From Clostridia bacterium (GTDB taxonomy: Bacteria; Bacillota; Clostridia; Oscillospirales; CAG-272): a stretch of DNA of 53,120 bases. Positions 2,897-25,246 of this stretch are shown piece by piece. The number at the start of each line of letters is the position of its first letter. Position 1 is the stretch's first letter. Location: contig JAFUOY010000009.1 in assembly GCA_017481595.1 (NCBI GenBank), positions 1-53,120 on the forward strand. The letters are read 5' to 3'. Under the pieces are notes generated by a model, which saw nothing but the letters and a program-made list of their open reading frames with translations, had not been told where the DNA came from and made no database searches. Both the position numbers and the translations under genes were made by a program.

Positions 2897-4573
2897 TTAT
2901 TTCGAGTCTTGTGTGTCGCATAAAAGTCTGTTTACGGCGCTTACGAGCGCTTTAACGGAGGATACGATAATATCGCTGTCGATACCTGTACCCCAATATG
3001 TCTTACCCCCAAGCTTAACGCTTACGTAGGAGGCTGCCTTAGAGGTCGTCTTTTCCTCAAGGGCGTGCTGAACGTAGGTCTCAAGGCTATAGTCAAGTCC
3101 CGTTATCTCGCGGATAGCGGAGCTTACGCAGTCAAGTCGACCGTTACCGAAGGAAACTGTGTCCTCGTACTTGCCGTTATATTTTAACGTTACGTTACCC
3201 TTGATTCCGCCGTCGTTAAGGTCTGTGTATACTGCCTTGATAACGTCAAGCTTATCTGTGAGGTTAACGAAATCGTTAATAAAGATTTCGTATACCTCCT
3301 TAGGCTGAAGCTCCTTGTGAGCGTGGTCGGAAATGCTCTTTATGTGGTAGCCAAACGCCTCTCTCATCTTTGCGGGGAGATTAAGCTTGAACTGGGTTTC
3401 CATAATATATCCGATACCGCCCTTACCCGACTGTGAGTTGATACGGATAACGTCTGCCTCGTATACTCTGCCAACGTCGCAGGGGTCAATGGGAAGATAA
3501 GGCACTGTCCAAAGGCAATCCTTACCCTCTCTGCACTTCATACCCTTGGCAATAGCGTCCTGATGTGAGCCGCTGAACGCCGCGAATACAAGCTGACCGC
3601 TGTAGGGCTGTCTTTCGTACACGTGCATTCTCGTAACCTTTTCATATATCTTTGTAATTTCGGGAAGATTGTTAAAATCAAGCTCGGGGTCGATACCCTG
3701 CGAATACATATTAAGGGCAAGAGTGATAATATCAACATTACCCGTTCTTTCGCCGTTACCGAAAAGCGTACCCTCTATTCTGTCACCGCCTGCCAAAAGT
3801 CCCATTTCGCTGTCCGCTACTGCGCAGCCTCTGTCGTTGTGGGGGTGGAGGGAGATAATAACGTTTTCTCTGTTCTTAAGATTTTTGTCCATATACTCAA
3901 CCTGGGATGCGTATACGTGGGGCATTGAGTGAGATACGGTAACGGGGAGGTTGATAATGACCTTATCGTCGGGAGTGGGCTCCCATATGGAAATTACCTC
4001 ATTGCATATCTCCTTTGCAAACTCGGGCTCAGTACCCGTAAAGCTTTCGGGAGAGTATTCAAAGGTGATCTTTCCCTTTGCGTTCTTTTTGTATTCCTTA
4101 CAAAGCTTAGCGCCGAATTTTGCGATCTCGATTATTTCCTCCTTGCTCTTTTTGAACACCTGCTCTCTCTGAGCCACGGAGGTGGAGTTGTAAAGATGAA
4201 CCACTGCGTGCTTTGCGCCGTCTATCGCCTCAAAGGTCTTTGCAATAATATGCTCTCTTGACTGAGTAAGCACCTGAATAGTAACATCATCAGGTATCAA
4301 ATTCTGCTCGATAAGGGTGCGGCAAAATTCGTATTCCGTTTCTGAGGCGGCAGGAAAGCCCACCTCGATCTCCTTAAAGCCTATTTTACAAAGGAGCTTA
4401 AAGAACTCCAGCTTTTCCTCAAGGCTCATAGGAATTATAAGTGATTGGTTGCCGTCTCTCAAGTCAACGCTGCACCATATGGGCGCCTTGTCGACAGAGT
4501 CCTTTTTCATCCAATCCATTGTGACTCCTGTGGGAGTAAAATACTGTTTGGTATATTTTTCTGTACCCTTCAT
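2897..4573 (-). CDS. leuA: 2-isopropylmalate synthase (long form)
   Basis: Condenses acetyl-CoA with 2-oxoisovalerate, the first committed step of leucine synthesis; 558 aa. The N-terminal TIM barrel carries APIWCSVDLRDGNQ near residues 30-43, which holds the metal-binding Asp and catalytic Arg, and LHPHNDRGCAVAD with the metal-ligand histidines. The last ~140 residues form the LeuA regulatory domain that binds leucine. The extended N-terminus with the PIWCSVDLRDGNQ block matches the longer actinobacterial/clostridial LeuA subtype rather than the ~515-aa enteric form. AAAGGA precedes the ATG. It is the first gene after a T-box leader, so leucine supply should control it by attenuation and by allostery. 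Confidence 0.95.
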   Translation of the reverse strand: MKGTEKYTKQYFTPTGVTMDWMKKDSVDKAPIWCSVDLRDGNQSLIIPMSLEEKLEFFKLLCKIGFKEIEVGFPAASETEYEFCRTLIEQNLIPDDVTIQVLTQSREHIIAKTFEAIDGAKHAVVHLYNSTSVAQREQVFKKSKEEIIEIAKFGAKLCKEYKKNAKGKITFEYSPESFTGTEPEFAKEICNEVISIWEPTPDDKVIINLPVTVSHSMPHVYASQVEYMDKNLKNRENVIISLHPHNDRGCAVADSEMGLLAGGDRIEGTLFGNGERTGNVDIITLALNMYSQGIDPELDFNNLPEITKIYEKVTRMHVYERQPYSGQLVFAAFSGSHQDAIAKGMKCREGKDCLWTVPYLPIDPCDVGRVYEADVIRINSQSGKGGIGYIMETQFKLNLPAKMREAFGYHIKSISDHAHKELQPKEVYEIFINDFVNLTDKLDVIKAVYTDLNDGGIKGNVTLKYNGKYEDTVSFGNGRLDCVSSAIREITGLDYSLETYVQHALEEKTTSKAASYVSVKLGGKTYWGTGIDSDIIVSSVKALVSAVNRLLCDTQDSK

Positions 4574-4627
4574 AATTTTTCCTTTCGCTAATATGTATCA
4601 TTTGCGGAGATACCAAGGGATATTAAA

Positions 4628-4672
4628 ATAAAAAAGCCTCTTTTACGCAACTTCTCCATGCATAAAAGAGAC
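4628..4672 (-). terminator. T-box regulated intrinsic terminator
   Basis: On the minus strand a stem of CTCTTTTATGCA and TGCGTAAAAGAG is followed by a run of T (AAAAAAG on the plus strand near 4630-4636). It directly follows the conserved T-box sequence and lies just ahead of leuA, as expected for the terminator that competes with the T-box antiterminator. Confidence 0.88.
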
Positions 4673-4885
4673 GAAGTATTCTCCGCGGTACCACTCTGTT
4701 TGACGCCGTAGCGTCCTCTTCAGCCTCGCCATCCAGCGACGCCTCTCTATATCGGGAGAACCCGTTCAAGCCTACTGTGATTTCGGTTGAAAACTCAGGG
4801 AGGAGTTATGCTCGCTTATCGCACGGCTCGCACCAGACGCCGATTCTCTTTGCCGACTACACGATTTTTATTCCCGTCATCGTTT
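4628..4885 (-). ncRNA. T-box leader of the leu-ilv operon
   Basis: A T-box RNA senses uncharged tRNA and prevents early termination. On the minus strand the conserved elements appear in order: an AGAGAAUCGG...GGUGCGAGCC apical segment of stem I, the AGUAGGCUUGAACGGG stretch, a CGGG-UUCU-CCCG hairpin (stem III), and the T-box core AGAGUGGUACCGCG, then a terminator. A CUC triplet at 4805-4803 sits where the specifier codon is expected and would read leucine, which fits leuA. The specifier assignment is by eye and less certain than the T-box itself. Confidence 0.9.
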
Positions 4886-4902
4886 AATATAATATATTAG
4901 TT

Positions 4903-4931
4903 ATTTTATAACAACTGAGCCGTTTTGTCAA
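4903..4931 (-). promoter_or_regulatory. Sigma-A promoter of the leu-ilv T-box operon
   Basis: Minus strand TTGACA (4931-4926), 17-bp spacer, TAAAAT (4908-4903). It lies about 20 bp before the first conserved T-box stem, as expected. Confidence 0.85.
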
Positions 4932-21360: not shown

Positions 21361-22920
21361 TTAATCGTAAAAATGAAGTGAAATACCTATTGTTGTTTTT
21401 TCGGGATGCTCGGGAACAATAAGATTCTTATCATCAATAGTTTCCTTAAGACACAACCCGCGAAGTCCAAGTATGCTCATTGATGCGTTATAAAATAACT
21501 GATCGTGAAGCGCTTGATTGCTTTCCTTTTTCAAAATAGCTACTATTTCGTCAAATACGCTCTGAACCATATTCTCGAGCTCTTTATAATTGGAATGAGA
21601 TTTCAAAATATTTCTTACCTTGTCCTCATATCCCTTAAGAAGAACGATAACGTCGGGAATAATATTTCCGTCCTCATCAGTATGGGCGAATTTATTTTCT
21701 ATCCTTGCATAGATATCCTTCTCCGTTCCTGAAAGGTCCGAAACTTTTTTACCCTTAGCTGCAATATCACTTAGAAGAACCACATTCTCATAATCGTGTG
21801 ATTCGGGAATTTTATTCCACATATCCCCTACGCCTATTTTATAGTGCCATAAAGTAGTTCCGCGCCAGCTTGAGCCGTTTTGACCCATACCGATGCTGTC
21901 TTTAAGGTCCTCATTTACCTCATATCCTACAAATCCCCAGGTTTCTCCTTTTCCCTCTCTCTTTACGGGGAAATTAAGGCTCCAGCCCTTGGCTCCCTTT
22001 GCGCACAGATCTACAAGATAAATGTATACCCACCATTTAAGGTCGTTGCCACTCATATTGTTTCTGACAACGCCAAGAGCGCGTATTTTATCAAGTGAGT
22101 CTGTTGAGATCCTGTTTACAAGCTCCGCCATTTTCTTTACGTTTCTTTTCTTTGCAAAATACAATGAGTTCTGGCACTCCTTACTTTGAATAAAGAAATT
22201 GGTAATATATTTGTCCTCTATTTTCTTAAGAAGAGTTGCCTTATGTAAAATATCAACCTCTTCCTCAATATAGGGAAGCGCAATACCAAGCTCAACGGAA
22301 AGCTCCTCCAAGGTGGATGGGTTATTGCTTGCCTCAAGTAATATGTTTTTGGGGATTTTTCTTGTTATAGCGCTCCAAGGAAGACCGCTTGGCTGGTTTC
22401 CGCTTGCCGCAAAGCTTACCTCCTCGGGTCTGTAGCTTCTTTTACCGAATTCTCTTGCCATATTCATACCTTCTTTCAGTTTTTTTCTTGCGTAGAACAG
22501 CTTTGATTTGACCGTTCCCTCAGGAAGACCTAAAGATGAAGCAATATCCTTTAATTTTCTGTCCTCTATGTAGTAGGGCACTACAATTTCTCTGTATTCC
22601 CTTGAAATAAATGCTAGCTCACGGCGAAGAAACGAGAGCTCTTCGTTTAAAATGATATCATTTTCAATATTAGCTTCTCCGTCTGCATAATCAATCTCAA
22701 GTGGATCGTCAAGAGATGTATTTTCACTTGTAATATGCTTCCTTTTTGCCCACAGATAATATCTGTTTCTTGCTATTTTCCATACCCAAGCCGAAAAGCT
22801 ATCGGGAATGTGACCCTTTTTTAGCCCGTAAACTACGTTAAGGGTTACATCCTGCGCAAGATCCTCTGCCTCGTGGGTATTACCTGTTTTTCTTAAGCAG
22901 AAATAAAACAGCTTTTCCAT
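21361..22920 (-). CDS. ECF-type sigma factor with a long C-terminal extension; start disrupted by an in-frame amber codon
   Basis: A 519-aa frame from ATG 22920. Residues 1-150 are an ECF sigma factor: region 2 shows NTHEAEDLAQDVTLNVVYGL and SFSAWVWKIARNRYYLWAKR, and region 4 ends with LGLPEGTVKSKLFYARKKL. About 360 more residues follow, beginning with a winged-helix-like part (TLEELSVELGIALPYIEEEV) and then a Trp-rich region of unknown fold (WWVYIYL, GSSWRGTTLWHYKIG). This could be a built-in sensor; anti-sigma genes are not adjacent. ATG 22920 has no ribosome site and would cut region 2. The natural start seems to be ATG 22983 next to AAAGGAGG, but that frame has a TAG at 22959-22957 after eight codons. 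It may be an inactivated gene or read through. I give the uninterrupted frame. Confidence 0.75.
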   Translation of the reverse strand: MEKLFYFCLRKTGNTHEAEDLAQDVTLNVVYGLKKGHIPDSFSAWVWKIARNRYYLWAKRKHITSENTSLDDPLEIDYADGEANIENDIILNEELSFLRRELAFISREYREIVVPYYIEDRKLKDIASSLGLPEGTVKSKLFYARKKLKEGMNMAREFGKRSYRPEEVSFAASGNQPSGLPWSAITRKIPKNILLEASNNPSTLEELSVELGIALPYIEEEVDILHKATLLKKIEDKYITNFFIQSKECQNSLYFAKKRNVKKMAELVNRISTDSLDKIRALGVVRNNMSGNDLKWWVYIYLVDLCAKGAKGWSLNFPVKREGKGETWGFVGYEVNEDLKDSIGMGQNGSSWRGTTLWHYKIGVGDMWNKIPESHDYENVVLLSDIAAKGKKVSDLSGTEKDIYARIENKFAHTDEDGNIIPDVIVLLKGYEDKVRNILKSHSNYKELENMVQSVFDEIVAILKKESNQALHDQLFYNASMSILGLRGLCLKETIDDKNLIVPEHPEKTTIGISLHFYD

Positions 22921-22983
22921 ATAGTTACCGGTAAACTCTGAAATAAGCTTCTCTGCCTAATCTGTGTAGGACTCATCTTTCAT
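22921..22983 (-). other. Upstream in-frame start region of the sigma gene, interrupted by TAG
   Basis: On the minus strand ATG 22983 opens MKDESYTD, then TAG (22959-22957), then AEKLISEFTGNY running in frame into MEKLFYF of the annotated CDS. The residues after the stop look like the usual start of sigma region 2. A C in place of T would give CAG (Gln) and a 540-aa protein. A second ATG at 22976-22974, well spaced from GGAGG, opens a different frame of only 27 codons. Confidence 0.65.
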
Positions 22984-23085: not shown

Positions 23086-23119
23086 AAAAATGCAAGAGAA
23101 TTTGTTCTCTTGCATTTTT
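23086..23119 (-). terminator. Terminator of the ECF-serpin operon
   Basis: Perfect 15-bp stem AAAAATGCAAGAGAA / TTCTCTTGCATTTTT with a 4-nt loop, 4 nt after the serpin stop codon. Confidence 0.92.
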
Positions 23120-23123
23120 GTAT

Positions 23124-24566
23124 TCAGTTAGGATTATTTACAACTCCGATAAACAACGGCAAGCCGTCGGGGCTTGTTACCACGAATATAAAGGGTCTGT
23201 CAAGGGTAAAATCAATTATTTCATTGGATGGAGCTGCAGAGCCACTTAAATGAAGATCAGTATACGCGGCGCCCTCACATCCGGTTTCATCCACCTTTAC
23301 TCTTACACCGTGCTCCACCTTAGATACGGCAACACCCCCTGCCATATCGGTAAGAATATTGGAAAAATCAGCCGAATTCTCATTAAAACAGTCGGTAATA
23401 CCCATTTTTTCAAGGGCTGAGACTATATCCTGCTTTTGAGAAATATCGAATTTAGGCATTGAAAGATTTATTTTCCTTTCTATTCTATCTTTCCATTTTG
23501 ATGGCGCGGACATAAAATCAAGAGCTGCTTCATCATTTATTAAATCGGCTACGTTATACCCTTCGTCGGGAAGGATCAGATACATATTTCCATCATTTTT
23601 AAGCGGCTTTGTCACGGCAGAAAACTTATCTCCATAGTAATACATTCCTTGCTCTTCGATGTACATAAAATCGCATTTCACATCGCGGTCTGGAGTGTGG
23701 AAAACGTCCTTTTTTGTAAGCTCCTTTTCAAATTCCGTTTCCCATCCTGCGCTAAAATACAGAGTGGATGCAATAGCCAATACGGTTTCGGCATCAAACT
23801 CTTTGTTTTCAAGCATTTTATCAAGAAGTCCGCCCGTTTCCTTTTTCAGCCACTCGCGGTAGCATTTATTATACTCGGTTGAATCCATATCCCCTTGAAA
23901 TACGGATGCGTAATAATGAGACGACAAGGTATTGACTGTCTGTGTGTTATATCCCATATTGTCCTTTAGCCAAAGTGAATTTGCCATTTTACTTATTGTT
24001 TTTCCGTCGTCACGGTAGCAGGCGTTCCACACAGAATGTACCTGTGTACGAAGTGAGTCAATATTTTCAGCGCAAAGAGTATCAAGAATTTGATTTCTCG
24101 TTTCTCCCCCGCTTACCTCCGCAAGCATTGAAAGAGCCATATATACGTTTACAGGGGAAAACACTTGATTTTCATCTGAAGTCCCCGCCAGCATTGTTTT
24201 TATACTGTTTTCAAAAAATACGTTCAGATTTTTTCCTGCGCCGTAATACTTGCGTTGCTCCTTAATACTGTCGTGCCATTTTATTATTTCATCGCCAATG
24301 GGAAGATTCGGATAGCTTTCCATTTTTGGATACTCCGGAGTTGATACCGCATAAGATGTCATAACAAGCCCGGGACCTGAATTTAAAATTATTGCGCCGC
24401 ACAAAATCACGGCAAGAACGGCGGCAACAGAGCCTATCCACTTGGGCTTACGTCTTTTCCTGACCGTTTTAACAGCCTTTCTTTCCTTTTTACTATATGA
24501 CTCGCCCTCCTCAATAAGAGACACATCAATATAGCTCATTGCATCAAACAAATTTTCCCCCTTCAT
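23124..24566 (-). CDS. Membrane-anchored serpin with an anti-sigma-like N-terminus
   Basis: A 480-aa protein. Residues 1-42 are cytoplasmic and charged (NLFDAMSYIDVSLIEEGE, then a Lys/Arg cluster), residues ~43-62 form one membrane helix, and ~100-480 are an extracellular serpin. Serpin marks are VFSPVNVYMALSMLAEVSGG (~135), the hinge VDETGCEGAAYT (~425-437) and the signature DRPFIFVVTSPDGLPLFIG (~456-474). The reactive loop would end near LHLSGSAAP, with P1 probably at or near Ser-Ala. Hinge position P14 is Cys rather than the usual Thr/Ser. Serpins trap proteases by loop insertion. The ATG overlaps the ECF sigma stop by 4 nt, the usual arrangement of a sigma gene with its anti-sigma gene, so it may control that sigma factor. 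An inhibitor-only role is the alternative. Confidence 0.9.
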   Translation of the reverse strand: MKGENLFDAMSYIDVSLIEEGESYSKKERKAVKTVRKRRKPKWIGSVAAVLAVILCGAIILNSGPGLVMTSYAVSTPEYPKMESYPNLPIGDEIIKWHDSIKEQRKYYGAGKNLNVFFENSIKTMLAGTSDENQVFSPVNVYMALSMLAEVSGGETRNQILDTLCAENIDSLRTQVHSVWNACYRDDGKTISKMANSLWLKDNMGYNTQTVNTLSSHYYASVFQGDMDSTEYNKCYREWLKKETGGLLDKMLENKEFDAETVLAIASTLYFSAGWETEFEKELTKKDVFHTPDRDVKCDFMYIEEQGMYYYGDKFSAVTKPLKNDGNMYLILPDEGYNVADLINDEAALDFMSAPSKWKDRIERKINLSMPKFDISQKQDIVSALEKMGITDCFNENSADFSNILTDMAGGVAVSKVEHGVRVKVDETGCEGAAYTDLHLSGSAAPSNEIIDFTLDRPFIFVVTSPDGLPLFIGVVNNPN

Positions 24567-25120
24567 ATTTCTACACCTTCCTTTTCTAAATATTTTTTTA
24601 GCGTATTGCGCGTGCGGTGAAGAATTGACTTTACCGCATTTTCACTAATTGAGAGATTATCCGATATTTCCGATATAGAATCAACGTACCAATATCTTCT
24701 TATAAAGATATTCCTGTTCCTTTCGGAAAGGGAGGACAAAAACATACTGATAGCATTTCCAAGCGCCATACTGTCCACGATGTCAGATGTATCTGCCTTT
24801 GGTATGCACTCACTAAGCTCGTCAATTGCAAGGTCTACTCTTGATGACGTTCTTTTCTCGGAGATATTGTATCTCAACTTATCAATAGCGGTGCTTCTTG
24901 CGATCATTCCAAAATATCCGCACAAGGAATCGGGATTTTTGGGAGGGATAGTATTCCAAGCCTTAAGATAGGTGTCATTTACGATTTCCTTGGCGTCATC
25001 CTCGTTTTCCACTATTCGATACGCTATTGAATAACAGTATTTTCCATACTTTTTCTCCGACTCGGATATTGCCTGCTCCGATCTTTCATTAAACAGATCT
25101 ATTATTTCCTTATCATCCAT
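24563..25120 (-). CDS. ECF RNA polymerase sigma factor
   Basis: A 185-aa group-4 sigma factor. Region 2 carries YCYSIAYRIVENEDDAKEIVND followed by YLKAWNTIPP. Region 4 carries RNRNIFIRRYWYVDSISEIS and SENAVKSILHRTRNTLKKYL, the promoter -35 recognition helix. ATG 25120 follows GAAAGGAGAACC at a normal distance; the 23 extra residues of the open frame to 25189 are ignored. It overlaps the downstream membrane-serpin gene by 4 nt. Upstream lies a GCAACC-N15-CGTCC pair that looks like an ECF autoregulated promoter, so the two genes probably form a self-activating unit. Confidence 0.93.
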   Translation of the reverse strand: MDDKEIIDLFNERSEQAISESEKKYGKYCYSIAYRIVENEDDAKEIVNDTYLKAWNTIPPKNPDSLCGYFGMIARSTAIDKLRYNISEKRTSSRVDLAIDELSECIPKADTSDIVDSMALGNAISMFLSSLSERNRNIFIRRYWYVDSISEISDNLSISENAVKSILHRTRNTLKKYLEKEGVEI

Positions 25121-25156
25121 TTCGGTTCTCCTTTCCTTTCGCCTCTCTACTATTAA

Positions 25157-25182
25157 GGACGAAAAAATTTTAAAAAGGTTGC
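25157..25182 (-). promoter_or_regulatory. Candidate ECF-type autoregulated promoter
   Basis: Minus strand GCAACC (25182-25177), 15-bp T-rich spacer, CGTCC (25161-25157), about 37 bp before the ECF start codon. AAC and CGTC boxes at this distance are typical of ECF promoters. No good sigma-A promoter is seen in the same gap. Confidence 0.55.
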
Positions 25183-25189
25183 GGTGCAA

Positions 25190-25233
25190 TATAAAAAAAT
25201 TGAAAAAGAGGAGAAAAATCCCCTCTTTTTCAA
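25190..25233 (-). terminator. Terminator of the eda-kdgK operon
   Basis: Stem TTGAAAAAGAGG / CCTCTTTTTCAA (25200-25211 and 25222-25233) followed on the minus strand by a run of seven T. Confidence 0.9.
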
Positions 25234-25246
25234 TAATATATGTAGA

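Follow-up and report, generated by a model that had tools for sequence, protein, structure and literature searches.

Why would the gene for an extracytoplasmic function (ECF) sigma factor overlap the gene for a membrane-anchored serpin? These two genes are encoded on the minus strand, within positions 23,124 to 25,182 of the window analyzed here, a 53,120-nt stretch of contig JAFUOY010000009.1 (GenBank assembly GCA_017481595.1) from a Clostridia bacterium of the Oscillospirales. A first-pass annotation of the sequence had placed the serpin protein in the role of an anti-sigma factor and had proposed that attack by a protease on its external domain is signaled across the membrane, releasing the sigma factor. 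Comparison of related loci, together with covariation between the two proteins, makes it very likely that the sigma factor and the serpin protein are a sigma/anti-sigma pair. Taken as a whole, the locus is probably a self-regulated two-gene operon in which the serpin serves as the anti-sigma ectodomain and in which the trapping of a protease frees the sigma factor.

The organization of the two genes was confirmed by the open reading frames (ORFs), by Pfam and by hydropathy: an ECF sigma gene overlaps by 4 nt a gene encoding a short N-terminus, one membrane helix and a serpin domain (Table 1). The sigma ORF had been listed with an upstream TTG start and has an ATG at 25120; its product scored 70.5 bits against the sigma factor superfamily TIGR02937 (cut-off 42.9), which places it among the ECF sigma factors. 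The most hydrophobic 19-residue stretch of the serpin protein starts at residue 43, so the part before the membrane is 42 residues long, the length that had been claimed for it. This N-terminus is rich in Lys and Arg, with FDAMSYIDVSLIEE as residues 7-20. Terminator-like hairpins were found six times in the window, as compared to a mean of 2.0 in shuffled sequences, and hairpins with T-tails bracket the sigma and serpin genes; a two-gene operon, located between a pfkB-type kinase gene and a sigma-like gene, is therefore the most likely arrangement.

Conservation of the sigma-serpin gene pair

The pairing of the two genes is widespread and is more than a chance neighborhood. A second sigma-serpin pair, also with a 4-nt overlap, is found on another contig of the same genome (locus L002), and serpins were present in 113 of 194 related genomes. 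Among 149 distinct serpins, drawn from related genomes and from a scan of named genomes, 73 stand directly behind a sigma gene of the type found in the window (hereafter, linked serpins), a count that shows the adjacency to be conserved in relatives but does not represent a natural frequency, since the choice of loci enriched the sample for relatives. Another 9 serpins are encoded directly behind a different sigma-like gene and 12 further behind a sigma gene, while for 49 no sigma gene was found upstream; the remaining 6 are located at contig ends. The same five classes hold 57, 1, 1, 19 and 5 members, respectively, in the named-genome set (n = 83), and 0, 3, 7, 20 and 0 members among the 30 best-scoring serpins of related genomes, for which only about 1500 nt of flank were examined.

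With regard to the composition of this sample, L003-L032 are 30 loci from the best matches, L033-L072 were picked from the lower-scoring serpins of related genomes and L103-L182 represent the 80 top matches among 360 relatives of serpins linked to sigma genes. Loci fetched through their sigma factor (L073-L102 and L183 onward) were omitted from the table of 149 serpins as copies. Also left out were two fragments of less than 250 residues and entries sharing the same first 150 residues. The six serpins at contig ends were counted as "edge", and two of them carry the N-terminal motif described below. An exact 4-nt overlap with the sigma gene was found for 56 of the 73 linked serpins, with start codons taken nearest to this overlap both here and in the second sample described below. 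One locus, L115, carries two sigma-serpin pairs in tandem.

The 57 carriers in the named genomes, mainly gut Clostridia, are assigned by NCBI to the families Oscillospiraceae (21), Lachnospiraceae (4), Eubacteriaceae (4) and Butyricicoccaceae (1), with no family given for 27. Among isolates, the gene pair was found in Flavonifractor sp. AGMB03687, Flavonifractor sp. An112 and Pseudoflavonifractor phocaeensis An507. The matches listed in full-text searches that paired serpin with sigma, anti-sigma or ECF did not describe any anti-sigma factor with a serpin as its outside domain, a negative that is limited to these searches, and none was found in the passages returned by term look-ups in PMC5127057, PMC6718151, PMC8233489, PMC10059941 and PMC12484212. 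Where three papers on bacterial serpins were looked up by term, "sigma" appeared in the passages returned only as the name of a supplier. The arrangement is real and conserved and, as far as searched, unreported. Since a conserved group of serpins in gut Clostridia is wired to its own sigma factor, what these serpins respond to becomes directly testable.

The N-terminal module and its link to the sigma factor

The linked serpins share a motif around "A(I/M)xxID xx(L/Y)(I/V)xxA", which is followed by basic residues and then by the membrane helix. While all 73 linked serpins scored with a profile built from themselves, which is circular, an independent profile was trained only on 39 non-serpin genes that lie behind sigma genes of the same family. 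At a threshold of 3 bits, this second profile detected 68 of the 73 linked serpins, including that of the window (Table 1), as compared to 1 of the 49 serpins without a sigma gene found upstream (L046); none of the 9 serpins behind other sigma-like genes and none of the 12 further behind a sigma gene exceeded the threshold. A membrane helix is present in 72 of the 73 linked serpins, and net charge is higher before than after the helix in 72 of 73; the topology predicted by sequence is thus that of an anti-sigma factor, with an inside N-terminus, one helix and an outside domain. Lipoprotein-like signals are found at the start of 38 of the 49 serpins without sigma, versus 3 of the 73 linked serpins.

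The module is not confined to serpins. A second sample, found by a sigma profile and overlapping in a few places with the earlier loci, comprises 86 loci with 87 sigma ORFs, of which 84 have a partner gene near their stop codon and three (L289, L292 and L301) do not. Among these 84 partners, 73 show the exact 4-nt overlap, 82 carry the motif and 4 have a serpin as outside domain, a share that may be high because serpin-linked sigma factors made up most of the input to the sigma profile (A2). The genome of the window itself has six such sigma genes, whose partners are two serpins, one beta-propeller protein (PF09826) and three proteins with no Pfam match at E up to 0.01; the beta-propeller partner is encoded on contig 3 (L183, 1076-2998, minus strand; PF09826 E 4e-63). 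Since serpin and non-serpin partners bear the module alike, the N-terminus represents a common module and the outside domain is exchangeable. The N-terminus is very probably the segment that binds sigma in a large family of proteins whose outside domains can be exchanged, and such a sigma/anti-sigma family, recognized by its short common N-terminus, could allow other unexplained sensor domains to be read from it.

Covariation between partner proteins points in the same direction. In 71 serpin pairs, distances between sigma factors track distances between N-termini (rank r 0.44, or 0.42 as a partial correlation controlling for the serpin; reached by none of 500 permutations), as compared to a rank r of 0.06 for the membrane/linker part and a mean r of 0.16 (maximum 0.27) for 38 serpin blocks of the size of the N-terminus. 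When scored on a shared scale with 363 serpin columns in the same pairs, the 30 N-terminal columns account for 7 of the 10 strongest links and for 14 of the 40 strongest. The top residue link in 110 pairs is N20/sigma136 (z 11.6 versus 7.7 for the best of 30 permutations), followed by N17/129, N23/147 and N7/146. The link between N20 and sigma136 follows a charge rule: sigma136 is basic in 41/41 pairs with an acidic N20 and in 3/33 pairs with a basic N20. This rule recurs in 66 further pairs (34/35 and 1/6; Fisher p 0.0036 and 0.00016), which remained from the 84 new pairs after 5 were dropped because of an old sigma factor or a missing motif and 13 because of at least 80% identity. When the 176 pairs are pooled, four links score above 7.8, the highest value in 20 permutations, namely N20/136 (13.9), N17/129 (11.8), N23/147 (8.3) and N12/121 (8.2), and these run in one direction, as would be expected of a helix lying along the start of region 4. 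Assessed by covariation, the contact between the N-terminus and the sigma factor that had been predicted from the sequence is supported.

Class I anti-sigma domains (RseA, RsiW, ChrR and RskA) are likewise described as making a charged contact with ECF sigma region 4 in covariation (PMC7406223), a link that they share with the N-terminus studied here. They are described as coupling mainly to region 2 via a fourth helix (PMC7406223), whereas here 17 of the top 30 links in the 110 pairs lie in sigma region 4 and 6 in region 2.

These data also bear on the simplest alternative, in which the N-terminus is a mere signal anchor, the two proteins are no sigma/anti-sigma pair and the sigma factor is controlled otherwise. 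Such a role would suit the shortness of the N-terminus and the results of Pfam, by which no known anti-sigma domain (e.g., class I, zf-HC2 and kin) was found, PF00079 being the only match in the serpin protein at E up to 0.01. By comparison, the motif defined on non-serpin partners recurs in the partners of the second sample, serpins included, is absent from serpins with plain signals and contains residues that covary with the sigma factor, which makes a mere anchor highly improbable. The N-terminus is very probably more than that, and its interpretation as a sigma-binding type of segment, put forward in the first-pass annotation, is supported both by the module shared with non-serpin partners and by covariation.

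The N-terminal domain of RsgI is a Pfam family of its own, which was not among the Pfam matches of the serpin protein. A similar set of sigma/anti-sigma pairs with varied outside sensor domains is described for SigI-RsgI of Clostridium thermocellum, where RseP cuts the anti-sigma factor (PMC12203970, PMC12484212). Unlike the serpin proteins, RsgI senses polysaccharides.

The serpin ectodomain and a possible protease switch

The serpin domain of the window appears to be of the inhibitory type. Its PF00079 match is full-length (profile positions 12-370 of 370) and its hinge, ETGCEGAAYT, carries Gly at P15, with small residues occupying P14 and P12-P10. Siropins, tengpin and other bacterial serpins likewise combine a serpin domain with a small-residue hinge. 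By a strict small-residue rule, the inhibitory-type hinge is kept in 63 of the 73 linked serpins; among the ten misses, seven deviate only through Ile or Leu at P14, two through Met at P11, and one (L037) is degenerate. The paralogue at L002 has a bait unlike that of the serpin of the window, and the two serpins of this genome may therefore watch different proteases. Small P1 residues suit elastase- or subtilisin-like proteases. Ala, Ser or Gly is found at P1 in 44, and Gly at P2 in 42, of the 50 linked serpins (out of 73) whose loop fits the alpha-1-antitrypsin register with Pro at P3', a register that is a guide only since siropins of Eubacterium siraeum, tested against human neutrophil elastase and proteinase 3, are described as being cut at bonds other than P1-P1', with no complex visible on gels (PMC5127057).

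The closest functional parallel is found in sigmaV-RsiV of Bacillus subtilis and Clostridioides difficile, in which an ECF sigma factor is held by a membrane anti-sigma factor. RsiV is described as binding and inhibiting lysozyme through its outside domain, so that the outside domain itself inhibits the attacking host enzyme, and as becoming open to signal peptidase and then to site-2 protease; activation raises the operon holding both genes (PMC5014341, PMC6066255). By analogy, the sigma-serpin system may work like RsiV. Unlike RsiV, the ectodomain here is a serpin in which no other Pfam family was found, which leaves it outside the RsiV family, and serpin trapping is described as irreversible (PMC5127057).

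If the analogy holds, the N-terminal segment (about residues 5-25) would hold sigma region 4 at the membrane in the rest state, as covariation suggests. An outside protease attacking the bait loop would be trapped by the serpin, which would change its shape, and this change could be passed to the juxtamembrane segment. The anti-sigma protein might then be cut, at site 1 by some protease and afterwards, as in RsiV, by an intramembrane site-2 protease, and the freed sigma factor would drive more of the same operon and hence supply more inhibitor. An EYP..YP stretch just before the serpin core, which is common to members with and without sigma, could dock on the serpin body and be released on loop insertion, in a manner similar to the N-terminal tail of tengpin, which is described as docking on the serpin body and steadying its native state (PMC8233489). 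A YAVSTPEYPKMESYP-type juxtamembrane stretch is also present in serpins without sigma. That proteases are the signal, a proposal modeled on RsiV and lysozyme, seems somewhat likely.

The same parts could also operate without a signal from the serpin. Cutting of the linker by an outside protease would then free the sigma factor, and the serpin would act as a shield or decoy that disarms low doses of the protease and thereby raises the threshold, its shape change not being the signal. Linker length varies widely among 23 aligned members, as if no fixed geometry were needed, and the membrane/linker part shows no covariation with the sigma factor, but the presence of the EYP..YP stretch in members with and without sigma argues that at least this part is probably structured. 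We consider such a shield improbable.

The proposal that protease trapping frees the sigma factor also includes self-regulation of the operon. The first-pass annotation had pointed to a GCAACC-N15-CGTCC promoter; GCAACC-N15-CGTC is indeed present before the sigma ATG, but this exact form is not conserved, being found (with spacers of 14-16) in 1 of 110 sigma upstream regions. The pattern GYAACC-N15-CGTY was found in 3 of the 110 regions, versus 0.03 in shuffles, and a looser -35-like element, GY(A/G)AC(C/T), in 64 of 110, versus a mean of 16 in dinucleotide shuffles. This -35-like element fits self-regulation, without proving it.

A number of observations weigh against the sigma/anti-sigma pair and the switch as proposed here. 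In the 71 serpin pairs, N20/sigma136 (z 9.8) is alone in scoring above all serpin columns (maximum 7.9); the second-best link of the N-terminus also scores 7.9, and N17/129 is absent among the 15 links listed. N7/146 (7.7 in 176 pairs) is out of step with the otherwise ordered links, and a test of the N20/sigma136 rule on the sigma tree gave 5.3 agreeing and 0 opposing of 12 independent pairs, with a median p of 0.0625, short of 0.05. The serpin of L046 (2992-4437, minus strand) has the N-terminal module and no sigma gene found upstream; it is possibly an orphan anti-sigma factor. The loop of L037 is degenerate, and an inhibitory hinge was also found in 35 of the 49 unlinked serpins, another 8 being left unparsed (as was 1 of the 12 serpins further behind a sigma gene), so that the hinge goes with serpins and not with the sigma link. 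With regard to site-1 cutting, an AxA next to the membrane was considered as an RsiV-like signal-peptidase site and was dropped, because lipoprotein serpins without sigma share this stretch, which is thus no proof of such cutting. M50 (site-2 type) proteases (PF02163) are found in 19 of 20 genomes, including all 12 good ones, which carries little weight as they are also found in 14 of 14 control genomes, and in the assembly of the window, which is 62% complete, the M50 matches are all weak (best E 2.5e-9). Finally, no regulon beyond the operon was found in the genome: a loose GCAAC-N15-17-CGTC pattern has 36 sites versus 56 in a reversed control, and the strict GYAACC-N15-CGTY pattern has 5 versus 10, with no target beyond the operon. 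All five strict sites are in mechanical ORFs of at least 150 aa, four of them inside ORFs of 389-680 aa; the fifth, that of the window, lies between the stop of the kinase gene and the ATG of the sigma gene, in a gap incidentally covered by two such ORFs.

Other arrangements and neighboring features

Serpins behind other sigma-like genes have different N-termini (e.g., L044 and L058; L003; L007; L008). Pfam, run on eight of the nine upstream genes of this class (L038 excepted), found sigma regions 2 and 4 in six, and the upstream gene of L003 has region 4 only in the ORF read; the eighth, from L049, is the helix-turn-helix protein described below. On a serpin tree, which is a quick one with long branches and shows repeated gain or loss but not its direction, the label of the window type changes 17 times (at least 11 on starred branches) and that of the other type 6 times (at least 3). 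Serpins further behind a sigma gene were no more clustered on this tree than in shuffles (144 of 500 as low). Judging by these sequences, serpins seem to have been tied to ECF signaling more than once, with different sigma types joining serpins separately.

These arrangements raise the alternative that the serpin protein is an anti-sigma factor in which the serpin is only the output, the sigma factor answering some other signal (e.g., membrane stress or plain cutting of the linker) and placing an inhibitor on the surface. Consistent with this, the serpin is a separate gene further behind the sigma gene in 12 of the 149 cases, with the middle gene bearing the window-type module in five of them (L009, L016, L029, L030 and L071); at L180, a sigma gene and a fused serpin are followed by a second, secreted serpin; and the serpin evolves largely independently of the sigma factor plus N-terminus. 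However, the serpin is the sole outside domain of the fused form besides the linker, the apparently separate joining of different sigma types points to a use of the serpin as an ectodomain in its own right, and RsiV is described as a case in which sensor and inhibitor are one (PMC5014341). An output-only serpin is therefore rather unlikely.

If it is true that capture of a protease drives the switch, the sigma-serpin system would represent a novel type of receptor, in which an inhibitor that acts irreversibly reports every capture. A more specific version, offered tentatively, is that of a one-shot receptor, where each capture of an elastase-like protease, whether from the host gut or from a competitor, would spend one serpin, whose irreversible conformational change would act across the membrane to release the sigma factor, several different sigma systems having recruited serpins for this role. 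Transcription would then count trapped protease molecules and refill the inhibitor.

Other loci show further arrangements of serpins and sigma genes. In L041 (2935-5902, minus strand), genes for an ECF-type sigma factor, a zf-HC2 anti-sigma-like protein and a membrane serpin that lacks the N-terminal module stand in a row, a third arrangement by which a serpin is coupled to a sigma system. In L013, L022 and L026, a sigma gene of another type is followed by genes for a membrane protein starting with MRSFEERKAEIFRRS (alike in the three) and for a lipoprotein-like serpin; L064 has the same order, with a membrane protein starting with MKTYDERAHDILERR. The protein of L007 starts with MKNYEETAHDVLLRI, similar to the MRSFEERKAEIFRRS and MKTYDERAHDILERR proteins, and is fused to a serpin. 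Upstream of a membrane serpin in L049, a gene (4457-4915, minus strand) encodes a 152-aa protein, possibly a relative of sigma factors with a swapped front half, in which a sigma region-4-like part comes after an Xre-type helix-turn-helix.

Table 1. Coordinates of the sigma and serpin genes of the window, their parts and flanking signals
Feature	Position	Strand	Basis
ECF sigma factor gene, 185 aa, regions 2 and 4	24563..25120	-	Pfam Sigma70_r2 residues 24-84, Sigma70_r4 residues 128-176
Anti-sigma-like membrane serpin gene, 480 aa	23124..24566	-	4-nt overlap (ATGA) between its start and the stop of the sigma gene
N-terminal residues 1-30, putative sigma-binding segment	24477..24566	-	25.4 bits against the non-serpin-partner profile; covariation with sigma
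Membrane helix, residues 43-61, basic stretch before it	24384..24440	-	Mean hydropathy 2.6
Juxtamembrane segment, residues 62-114, contains YAVSTPEYPKMESYP	24225..24383	-	Alignment of serpin members
Serpin domain, residues 123-479	23130..24200	-	PF00079 E 7e-71; solved relatives conserpin, tengpin
Reactive-centre loop ETGCEGAAYTDLHLSGSAAPSNEIIDF, residues 427-453	23208..23288	-	Putative P1 Ser443, from alpha-1-antitrypsin register
Sigma residues 121-148 (linker end and region 4 start), strongest covarying partners of the N-terminus	24677..24760	-	Covariation
Promoter-like GCAACC-N15-CGTC, between kinase gene and sigma ATG	25158..25182	-	Pattern match
Terminator-like hairpin 3' of upstream kinase gene	25199..25234	-	Hairpin scan
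Terminator-like hairpin 3' of serpin gene	23086..23119	-	Hairpin scan

The next gene downstream of the serpin gene (21361-22983, minus strand) encodes a sigma-like N-terminus and a long C-terminal part, for which no Pfam match over the cut-off was found. An in-frame TAG is present at the ninth codon after its likely start at 22983 (MKDESYTD*AEKL). Relatives of the C-terminal part are encoded in the sigma-serpin loci L033, L035, L116/L061 (one place) and L125, with weaker ones in L186 and L026.

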